From: an uncultured Sulfurimonas sp.
GTDB taxonomy: Bacteria; Campylobacterota; Campylobacteria; Campylobacterales; Sulfurimonadaceae
Assembly (NCBI GenBank): GCA_937900945.1
Contig: CALCGG010000099.1
Location: 1-45,058 of the forward strand
Direction: 5' to 3'
DNA: 45,058 nucleotides
In this document: piece after piece, positions 24,952-45,058 of the stretch
Position numbering within the stretch: position 1 is the stretch's first letter
Layout of the letters: each line of letters begins with the position of its first letter
The notes under the pieces: model-generated
Database searches by the model: none
What the model was told of the DNA's origin: nothing
What the model saw: the letters and a program-made list of their open reading frames with translations, nothing else
Program-made: the position numbers and the translations under genes

Positions 24952-25467
24952 TTAATCTCTTATAACATCAAACTCTAATGGAATTCTCGGTACAAAAATA
25001 CTGTTGTCTATTTCTATATTTTGCTTTTGGTTCGTAAACAGTATCTGTACCTTATTGTCAAATTCATCTAAATATGAGATAGACTCTATAAAATTATTTT
25101 TTGAAATAATAGTAAATTTTGATTCTTTATAATAAGCTTCATAAACATCTTTTTTAATCTCTTTTGCATGTTCTACTATACTAAAGAAATCAAATTTCGA
25201 TTCAATTCTCTTAACTATAACCTGTTCTATCTCAGGCTCTATTATAGTCACATTGCGAGCATTTATATAAATATCTTTTTTTACCGGTTTTGTGTATTGC
25301 CACATTGCGTATAAAGGTTTAGCGGCTATAAGGTGGCCATTATAAGTTAGGACTTTATTTTTCTCATCCGTGATATTTTGAGTAAATTCTGCTTCAAATG
25401 AATAAATATTCTTTAGAGATGCAAAACTGAGAGTGAACAGTATCATTAATAAAAGTGTTTGCTTCAA
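24952..25467 (-). CDS. lolA: outer membrane lipoprotein carrier protein LolA
   Basis: Signal-peptide-like N-term; FEAEFTQNITDEKNKVLTYNGHLIAAKPLYAMWQYTKPVKKDIYINARNVTIIEPE. Confidence 0.9.
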   Translation of the reverse strand: MKQTLLLMILFTLSFASLKNIYSFEAEFTQNITDEKNKVLTYNGHLIAAKPLYAMWQYTKPVKKDIYINARNVTIIEPEIEQVIVKRIESKFDFFSIVEHAKEIKKDVYEAYYKESKFTIISKNNFIESISYLDEFDNKVQILFTNQKQNIEIDNSIFVPRIPLEFDVIRD

Positions 25468-25514
25468 GTATTTCCTTTTTTGAAAATTATAGCAAAGTGA
25501 TCGTTTACATATTG

Positions 25515-25520
25515 TATAAT
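25515..25520 (+). promoter_or_regulatory. candidate -10 box (TATAAT) for a long secA leader transcript
   Basis: Perfect TATAAT in the lolA-secA intergenic region; would give a leader of about 400 nt. Confidence 0.45.
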
Positions 25521-25632
25521 ATTAGATTTAAAAAAAGCTCTGCCATTAAATTATGGTGATTCTAACTATAAATATGATAAAATCACCGCCATTTCTATGG
25601 TTGCTGTTGTCATGTAGCAAATAATTGCGGTA

Positions 25633-25902
25633 TAAGTGCCTAACCATAATAAATGTCATAATCAATGAGAAGATAAGCTATAAGCTGTGAGGCAAAATCA
25701 CGCAGTTGCACTTATTGTGCTTCAAGAGATTTTAACGAAGCAGATTGTAGCTTTTCTTCTCACCCTTCGGGCAACATTTAAAAGGATTATCTCCTGTGTT
25801 GAACTTCACTTAACGATGCTCGGCATCGCCAAGCAAAGTTCGCCTTGAATCTAAACCTTTTAAATGTTGTTGATTATGGTATTTATTATGGTTGGGCACT
25901 TA
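25633..25902 (+). ncRNA. candidate structured RNA or fold-back element upstream of secA
   Basis: 33-nt terminal inverted repeats (25633-25665 / 25870-25902) whose only three mismatches are G.U on the + strand; internal helices 25666-25680/25748-25762 and 25772-25785/25856-25869 plus CC(UUCG)GG hairpin at 25764-25771. Confidence 0.6.
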
Positions 25903-25930
25903 ACAATAGTAATCTAATATAAGGTTGAAA

Positions 25931-28504
25931 ATGCTACAAGCATTCGTTGGTAAGGTCTTTGGTACTTCAAATGACCGTGAATTAAAAAAATATTCTAGCA
26001 AAGTTAATGAGATAAACGCATTAGAAACAAAATATTCGGCGCTCAGTGATGATGAGTTAAAAGCGGAATTCTTAAAACTAAAAAATAGTGTCTTGAAAGA
26101 GGAAAAAACCTTAGGTATGGTTCTGGTTGATTCTTTTGCTATTACAAGAGAAGCTTCTAAGCGGGTTTTGGGCATGAGACATTTCGATGTTCAGTTGATT
26201 GGTGGAATGGTACTGCATGAAGGTCGTATAGCTGAGATGAAAACAGGTGAGGGTAAAACACTTGTAGCAACTCTGGCAATTGTTTTAAATGCTATGACCG
26301 GAAAAGGTGTGCATTTAGTCACTGTAAATGACTATTTGGCGAGCAGAGATGCCAAAGAAATGGGAGTTCTCTATAACTTTTTAGGATTTTCAGTTGGTGT
26401 TGTTTTAGAGAATATGCATGATAGTGTGGCTAAAAAAGAGGCGTACAACGCTGATATAACTTATGGTACAAACAATGAATTTGGTTTTGATTACCTTAGA
26501 GATAATATGAGTTATTCATTGGATACCATGGCTCAGAGAAACCATAATTTTGTTATTGTTGATGAAGTTGACTCTATTCTGATAGATGAAGCTAGAACAC
26601 CATTGATTATCTCAGGTCCTACTAACAGAAGCATGCAAGATTATAGCGATGCGAATGTTATAGCTTTAAATTTAGTAAAAGATGAACATTTTACTGTTGA
26701 TGAAAAAGACAAAGTAGTCCTTATTACGGAAGAAGGTATTACTAAAGCGGAAGAGTTATTTAAAGTTGAAAATCTTTATAGTGCTGAAAATTCATCACTT
26801 CCACATGCTCTAGACCAGGCCTTAAAAGCTAATTATCTTTTTGAGAAAGATGTCGATTATGTTGTTAATGATGGCGAGGTTGTAATTGTTGACGAGTTTA
26901 CAGGCCGTTTGAGTGAAGGTCGTCGTTTTTCTGAAGGTCTGCATCAGGCTTTAGAAGCTAAAGAGGGTGTTGAAGTAAAAGAAGAAACACAAACCTTAGC
27001 AGATATCACTTTTCAAAATTATTTTAGAATGTATGACAAGCTGGCCGGTATGACTGGAACAGCAGAAACAGAAGCAACAGAATTTTCACAAATTTATTCA
27101 CTGGATGTTGTTTCCATTCCAACTAATATTCCTGTTACAAGACAAGATTTAAACGACTTGATTTATAAAACTGAAGAAGAAAAATTTTCTGCAGTTATCA
27201 ATACAATTAAAAAGCTATCTAAAACAGGACAGCCTGTTTTGATAGGAACGGCTTCTATTGAAAAGTCTGAAAAGCTTCATGAAGTTCTTAAAAAAGAAAA
27301 AATTGCTCATACCGTTTTAAATGCTAAGAACCATGCGCAAGAGGGTGAGATTATTAAAAGTGCCGGTGCTAAAGGAGCGGTTACAATCGCTACAAATATG
27401 GCCGGTCGTGGTGTTGATATCAAAGTAAATGATGAAGTCAAAGCTCTTGGCGGACTTTATATAGTTGGAACTGAGCGACATGAAAACCGCCGTATCGACA
27501 ATCAGCTTCGTGGTAGAAGCGGTCGTCAGGGTGATGCAGGTACAACACAGTTTTATCTTTCTTTAGAAGATAATTTACTCCGTATTTTTGGCTCTGATAA
27601 AATCAAGTCCATCATGGAAAGACTTGGTGTTGAAGATGGTGAATATATAGAGTCCAAAATGGTTACCCGTGCAGTTGAAAAAGCTCAGAAAAAAGTTGAA
27701 AACATGCACTATGAAGGTAGAAAGCAGATAGTTGAGTATGATGATGTTGCAAATGAACAAAGAAAAATTGTCTATAAATTCAGAAATCAACTCTTAAGTG
27801 CAGAGTATGATATATCATCAAAAATTGATGATATAAGAGAAGAATATATTAAGTATATGTTTGGCTTATCTGGAATTTATATTGGCGGGGCAAGAGAAGA
27901 CTTCTCTCTGGAAGATATAGCTAAGCACCTAAAAGAAGAGATAAACTTTAATCTAAATACAGACTCATTAGTTTCACTTGAATATGAAGAGTTATTCGAA
28001 GCAGTTCTAAGCAGTGTTAAAAAATCTTATGATGAGAAAATGAGTGTTTTAGAAGATGAAATGCGTCAAGATATAGAAAAAGAGTTTTATTTAAAAGAGC
28101 TCGACAGTGCTTGGAGAGAACATCTTTATTCTATGGACAATATGAAAACAGGTATTAGACTTCGTGCGTATAATCAAAAAGATCCTCTTGTTGAGTACAA
28201 AAAAGAGAGTTTTAATCTTTTTGGCGAGTTAATCAATGATATCAAGTTTAATACCATCAGAACACTTCAGATTATTCAGTTTAAATTAGAATCAGCAGAA
28301 GAAGAGGCTAAGAAAATTGCTCAGCAAATGGAGATACAAAGAATGCTTGATAGTCAAGCAATGCAATTAAATCATCATGACGATGAAGAAGATGCAAATT
28401 CAAAAAGAATTTCCAGAAATGATCCTTGTCCATGTGGAAGCGGGAAAAAGTACAAACAATGTTGCGGTAAAAGTGGTCCAAAAAAAGGTGCTTTTGCTTC
28501 TTGA
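25931..28504 (+). CDS. secA: preprotein translocase ATPase SecA
   Basis: [33 protein letters not shown]-terminal zinc motif [19 protein letters not shown]. Confidence 0.98.
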
Positions 28505-44683: not shown

Positions 44684-44732
44684 TTGTTGAAAAAAGAAAC
44701 TAATTCAAAGGATATTTAGAGTAATATTCCGC

Positions 44733-45058
44733 AGGTACAACAGATAGTTACTTGAATTTTATAATCCAAGAGGAAAGTCCGATCTGCCGTAAGACAGTGT
44801 TCCATTTAACTAATGGCCGTAGTAATGCGAGGGAAAGTGCAACAGAAATTAGACTTCTATTGTTATGCAGTAGTAAAGGTGAAAAGGTGGTGTAAGAGAC
44901 CACCAGTCTTTATAGTAATATAGAGAGCTTGTAAACCCAACATGGCAGCAAGAAACAAACGGTTAGCGTCTTACATTGCTATTGTTTCGCTAGAGGTACT
45001 ATGTAAATAGTACAGTAGATTAATGCTATCAAAACAAAACTCGGCTTACGTTGTACCT
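44733..45058 (+). ncRNA. rnpB: RNase P RNA (bacterial type A); 3' end at or just past the window edge
   Basis: AGGTACAAC/GTTGTACCT terminal helix, GAGGAAAGTCC, GAAAAGGTGG..AAGAGACCACCAG, GTAAACCC, AAACTCGGCTTAC conserved blocks. Confidence 0.95.

Follow-up and report, generated by a model that had tools for sequence, protein, structure and literature searches.

A fold-back element upstream of secA in Sulfurimonas: very probably a non-autonomous IS630-type MITE with two inverted hairpin units

The secA locus and its fold-back element

The window analyzed here is a stretch of 45,058 nucleotides from an uncultured Sulfurimonas sp. It contains secA (25931..28504, plus strand; an ORF assigned by NCBIfam TIGR00963 with 1049 bits), whose divergent neighbor is a LolA-like gene. 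The SecA protein matches that of a named Sulfurimonas MAG at 82%, which places the host in this genus. Three tRNA genes on the minus strand, two of them equal in score, and the 5' part of an RNase P RNA at the window end were also detected by Rfam (237-507 and 44732-45058, respectively). Upstream of secA lies a fold-back of 270 bp (25633-25902), which stops 28 nt short of the secA ATG, as given in the initial annotation. Its arms (25633-25665 and 25870-25902) are inverted repeats in which all 33 positions are paired (30 Watson-Crick and 3 G.U pairs on the plus strand), which reproduces the pairing described there, and blastn gave an arm-to-arm identity of 91%. No third arm-like site could be found in the window at up to three mismatches, and none appeared in 100 shuffles. 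The minimum free energy of the plus strand was -117.1 kcal/mol, compared with -57.0 +/- 4.7 for shuffled sequences (z = -12.9), and we regard the fold-back as genuine and well outside the range of chance. The minus strand gave an almost equal value (-113.0, z = -12.4); since both strands fold nearly alike, the fold gives no pointer to the strand. In the predicted plus-strand fold we recovered the four-way junction proposed earlier, with the arms enclosing two hairpins and a mini-hairpin. No ORF of at least 60 amino acids was present within the element, and Rfam returned no match for it even at relaxed thresholds.

A covariance model, R1, was built from the first hairpin (unit A) and the mini-hairpin. 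Unit A (25666..25762, plus strand; helix P2 of the initial annotation) is an imperfect palindromic hairpin of ~97 nt, which carries the motifs GGCAAAA and TTTTAACGAAG, has a stem that covaries across the family and was matched by R1 at 25664-25773 on the plus strand (103.4 bits). The model also matched the second hairpin, unit B (25772..25869, minus strand; formerly P3), at 25761-25871 on the opposite strand (65.7 bits). Because R1 matches both hairpins in opposite strands, the element consists of two inverted ~97-nt units sharing a mini-hairpin of the form CCC-nnn-GGG. In the window this central mini-hairpin, common to both units, reads CCC-TTC-GGG (25763..25771, plus strand); among 29 copies the CCC and GGG were invariant and the loop was variable. 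The units are enclosed by a left terminal inverted repeat, AGTGCCTAACCATAATAAATGTCATAATCAA (25635..25665, plus strand), and a right one (25870..25900, minus strand).

The sequence TATGATAAAAT (25573..25583, plus strand) is a likely secA promoter -10 region, judged from the position of a similar box in relatives. In most of 13 relatives the distance from such a -10-like box to the secA ATG is about 68-77 nt, compared with 358 nt in the host; thus, the insertion probably sits within the transcribed 5' leader of secA, the promoter role of the box being putative. No promoter- or terminator-like consensus site could be identified in 25400-26000. In the orthologous lolA-secA intergenic regions of relatives that were read, the element was absent, and the host alone carries a copy there. 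In many relatives, a palindrome, ACTATATAGT, often ACTATATAGTAAATTATATAGTA, occurs about 28-42 nt before secA (L146, L148, L149, L151, L155, L156, L162 and L164); it is absent from the host and its closest relative and may represent a separate leader hairpin.

The very stable fold and its position in a leader that is probably transcribed could be taken to indicate a structured RNA acting from the plus strand, either a regulator in the secA leader or an ncRNA in its own right, both of which had been suggested before. We consider this highly improbable: the secA leaders that were read in relatives lack the element, the two strands fold equally well, and neither a promoter- or terminator-like site nor an Rfam match accompanies it. 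Further evidence on this point came from the sister copies.

Dispersal and insertion at TA

When 99 relatives were searched by blastn, the element was found in 25 genomes, all of them Sulfurimonas, at many unrelated loci and often at full length. We extracted 31 copies, nearly all of 266-271 nt and one of 258 nt. With R1, matches were obtained in 72 of 135 Sulfurimonas genomes, with a maximum of 41 unit matches in a single genome. Five elements are present in the host genome (G000), namely the secA copy and four with other arms. The latter (L219-L222; C110:10642-10843, C118:37116-37321, C198:1655-1856 and C234:88-289) have ends of three kinds (ATACCAATCCCC.., TAAGTCCTTAG.. and ATACCAAATGCA..). 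The gene contexts of sister copies were convergent, divergent and co-directional. The copies thus occur in every gene orientation, which argues against an RNA, and together with the absence from the secA leaders of relatives this did not bear out the earlier idea of a secA leader element.

Near-identical copies occurred at separate loci of one genome, with 263-264 of 265 bases shared in G142 and identities of 97.4% in G053 and 98.1% in G016; the 99%-identical copies at different G142 loci indicate recent activity. Five elements (L020, L049, L021, L050 and L054) lacked unit B with both ends kept, and this form, which was present at two loci of G052 (L020 and L049), may itself be mobile. Ends of the AAGGGCACCTCTAAAAACCC type were also seen paired only about 50-70 bp apart (G155:C304:2661-2731 and G142:C36:10870-10920), that is, in elements reduced almost to their ends. 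At two loci of G108 (L229 and L230), an extra ~20 nt, TTGCTATGCCCTTTGGGTA, forms an added mini-hairpin near the apex of unit A. In G039, a related element (L024) stops just short of an aspartyl-tRNA-synthetase-like gene, a few bases from the gene start, and the end of the element carries AAGGA at a distance that suits a ribosome-binding site. A blastn search of plasmid and phage records gave no match. An autonomous element with AAGGGCACCTCTAAAAACCC ends was also sought, and mainly ~270-bp elements and contig ends were returned.

For 12 copies, the two flanks were joined and used to look for empty sites in 15 relatives. A clean 2-bp TA duplication relative to empty sites in close relatives was observed for six copies (L031, L018, L044, L017, L035 and L032). 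For example, the filled site CTTA/TATGTTATAATC corresponds to the empty site CTTATGTTATAATC (L031), CCTTATATCTAAAAG to CCTTATCAAA(A/C)AG (L018), and GATCTATATATGAC to GATCTATATGAC (L044). Site alignments were ambiguous for L037, L033 and part of L013 and L012. A duplicated TA is characteristic of IS630/Tc1-mariner elements. The window copy has TA on both flanks (25633..25634 and 25901..25902), which we take as its target-site duplication from the filled and empty sites of its sisters, the empty-site relative of this copy being too diverged for an exact duplication. The outermost T-A pair of the helix described in the initial annotation belongs to the TA target duplication and not to the element proper, and what looked like a 33-bp closing helix represents two transposon ends together with the TA duplications.

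Terminal repeats, IS630 partners and related systems

PF13358 was detected in 20 of 135 Sulfurimonas genomes, and carriers of the element that possess it include G108, G125, G169 and G170. The partner proteins are IS630-family transposases (NCBIfam NF033545) in elements of 1.07-1.13 kb. The IS630 elements of G169 (1.07 kb) have the ends TAAGTGCCTAACCAAAATTAATGTCATA, compared with TAAGTGCCTAACCATAATAAATGTCATA in the window; including the TA, the left arm of the window copy agrees with this IS630 end at 26 of 28 positions and the right arm, which pairs with the left end over 33 bp, at 23 of 28, and the next best place in the window reaches 18 of 28. In G108, the ends of the IS630 elements (1.13 kb), TAAGTACCTATCCAAAAATAAAACCAA, are the same as those of two MITEs of that genome (L233 and L234), and the IS630 end of G109, ATACCAATCCCCATTAAA, resembles two of the host MITEs. 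PF13358 was not found in the host genome, and several genomes that carry recent copies, G142 among them, likewise yielded no IS630 transposase, although draft assemblies may lose genes. The partner transposase is thus not always resident with the MITE. A resident cognate transposase is usual for a MITE rather than defining, and a MITE can outlive its partner.

The same interior was found with unrelated ends (TAAGTGCC.., TAAGTAAGAG.., AAGGGCACCTCTAAAAACCC, ATACCAATCCCC.., TAAGTACCTATCC.. and TAAGTCCTTAG..), and the notion that one type of terminal repeat is tied to the core proved wrong. R1 did not match any unit in eight IS630 loci; hence the interior is not left over from these IS630s, and an origin of the core as an internal-deletion product could be ruled out for these eight loci.

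On the basis of these data, the fold-back is very probably a non-autonomous IS630-type MITE that is mobilized in trans by an IS630-family (Tc1/mariner-type DDE) transposase. The suggestion of a MITE-like element in the initial annotation was right: the copies are dispersed, empty sites exist, and both TA duplications and ends of the IS630 type were observed. Copies at many unrelated loci, seen by blastn and the covariance model, and target duplications, seen in the site alignments, had been proposed as the sign of a MITE. The element encodes nothing, and the transposase would be supplied in trans. An IS630-type transposase would bind both ~30-bp terminal inverted repeats and excise the element, which would be inserted at a TA with duplication of the TA, and the window copy would have landed in this manner in the secA leader of the host lineage. 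The arms would change in step, both ends suiting one transposase, and other arms would pair with other IS630 types. The units may act at the DNA level, for example by drawing the two ends close to each other when the palindrome extrudes or turns single-stranded. The dispersal, the empty sites, the duplication of TA, the agreement with IS630 ends and the internal covariation described below are direct observations; mobilization in trans is the most likely route by analogy with RUP and IS630-Spn1 (PMC2229807, PMC3049150).

Several known systems resemble the element in part. The repeat unit of pneumococcus (RUP) is also short and non-coding, is dispersed between genes, has ends like those of the resident IS630-Spn1, targets TA and has ends that pair in the predicted fold (PMC2229807, PMC3049150). 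However, RUP is 107 bp long and restricted to one species, whereas the element described here is ~270 bp long, contains two inverted hairpin units and occurs in two phyla with several end types that go with different IS630s. The Correia/NEMIS elements of Neisseria share terminal inverted repeats, TA at the termini and target duplication, and their transcripts contain a stable stem-loop (PMC2229807), for which RNase III processing has been reported; they differ in their size (107/155 bp), their ~24-bp ends and the lack of a twin-unit interior. The ends of the window copy hold GCCTAAC and GTTGGGC, which fit the RYYYAAC/GTTRRRY boxes of integron attC sites, but the element is about twice the length of attC and no cassette array is present; an attC site was rejected, the boxes not being kept in sister copies such as TAAGTAAGAGACC.

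The inverted pairs of palindromic units between genes are also reminiscent of REP/BIME sequences. It might be proposed that, as in REP/BIME pairs, a single-strand Y1/HUH (REP-associated) transposase mobilizes the hairpin units and that the IS630-like ends are secondary, and both the BIME-like layout of two inverted units and the recurrence of the units with unrelated ends would agree with this. We regard such a mechanism as extremely improbable, because insertion gives TA duplications, the ends match IS630 ends, and the units are ~97 nt long and lie inside TA-flanked ends, whereas REPs are 20-40 bp (PMC3733652) and tied to Y1 transposases (PMC3733652, PMC2817692).

Covariation and distribution of the twin-unit interior

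Among 29 copies, 56 of the 91 predicted pairs were altered on both sides. In the arms of these copies, 857 of 899 cells were Watson-Crick pairs, and the remainder included G.U (17) and A.C (16) in nearly equal numbers. The three G.U pairs of the window copy, previously taken to indicate a plus-strand RNA, therefore lose this meaning in the family. A total of 86 units, with many end types, were aligned in addition; 96.2% of cells paired, compared with 40-49% when slid. Double changes occurred in 34 of 35 pairs, with a covariation of 0.826 (0.208 when shuffled), in an alignment that was fitted to the model and leans towards pairing. The ratio of G.T to A.C in the unit stems was 112:17 in the model-fitted alignment, an excess that was gone in a strand-neutral one.

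The conserved core and covarying stems would suit a structured RNA, and the initial annotation had proposed that covariation supports an RNA. Covariation is indeed strong, but this rule does not hold for transposon ends: paired ends that track a transposase as it changes resemble a conserved helix and imitate RNA covariation. The arms, with 17 G.U and 16 A.C cells, have no strand bias, and the excess of G.U in the unit stems is confined to the RNA-model-fitted alignment. An RNA regulator is thus not supported: a secA leader regulatory RNA was rejected, being neither conserved upstream of secA in the relatives whose leaders were read nor strand-specific in its arms, and an independent ncRNA is likewise unsupported, with no promoter- or terminator-like site found in 25400-26000, no Rfam match and no strand bias of the arms. 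This removes a candidate riboswitch-like secA element.

The arms probably covary because both ends serve one transposase, or because template switching corrects the palindrome. Long palindromes are known substrates of template-switch correction. If one side of the palindrome were copied onto the other, arms and stems would stay matched by mutation rather than by selection, which we consider possible though rather unlikely. The absence of a strand preference in the arms and their near-perfect pairing in nearly every copy are in line with this process, but it leaves the dispersal, the TA duplications and the IS630-like ends unexplained, and mismatches at fixed positions of the units are conserved instead of being corrected away. 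Template switching can act alongside mobilization of an IS630-type MITE, and part of the covariation may come from it.

Since the units covary across many end types, their covariation cannot be attributed to the ends. Judging from the alignments, the interior has preserved its hairpins although its sequence has turned over almost completely. A DNA-level role of the units in transposition is favored, given the similarity of the two strands and the lack of a strand preference in the arms. Ordinary MITEs are decaying deletion products of one IS. For the present elements we suggest, with considerable reservation, that the twin-hairpin interior may be a functional module in its own right, predating any of the terminal repeats attached to it and recognized as a structure (by a transposase, a host protein or an RNase, or as a transcription-neutralizing insulator), which unrelated IS630 end types would have carried through Campylobacterota and Gammaproteobacteria as a structure-selected MITE superfamily. 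Such a superfamily would span two phyla while its size and layout stay constant (TA, ~30-bp end, unit, mini-hairpin, inverted unit, end, TA), and would open to experiment the question of why an interior that is non-coding and has no relation to the IS retains its hairpins. No description of a twin-unit superfamily could be found in Rfam or in openly accessible papers, the scope of this search (ISfinder and subscription literature lying outside it), and no papers on Sulfurimonas MITEs were found. What is new here is the twin-unit interior and the wide distribution of this IS630-type MITE.

At E <= 1e-6, R1 matched 31 of 397 well-completed Campylobacterota genomes, representing 15 of 68 genera including that of the host, and 21 of 369 genomes of the class of Colwellia sp. 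C1TZA3 (Gammaproteobacteria). Matches were also seen in Photobacterium chitinilyticum and Colwellia. An exact IS630 partner for a given gammaproteobacterial MITE was not found; PF13358 was present in 5 of 20 gammaproteobacterial genomes, and IS630 elements with ends of a related type (CTAGTGT.., ATACCAAT..) occurred in some of them. The gammaproteobacterial examples with readable ends are 253-278 bp long and have end repeats 26-35 bp in length around two inverted units, and most of them have TA at or beside the ends, even in GC-rich DNA.
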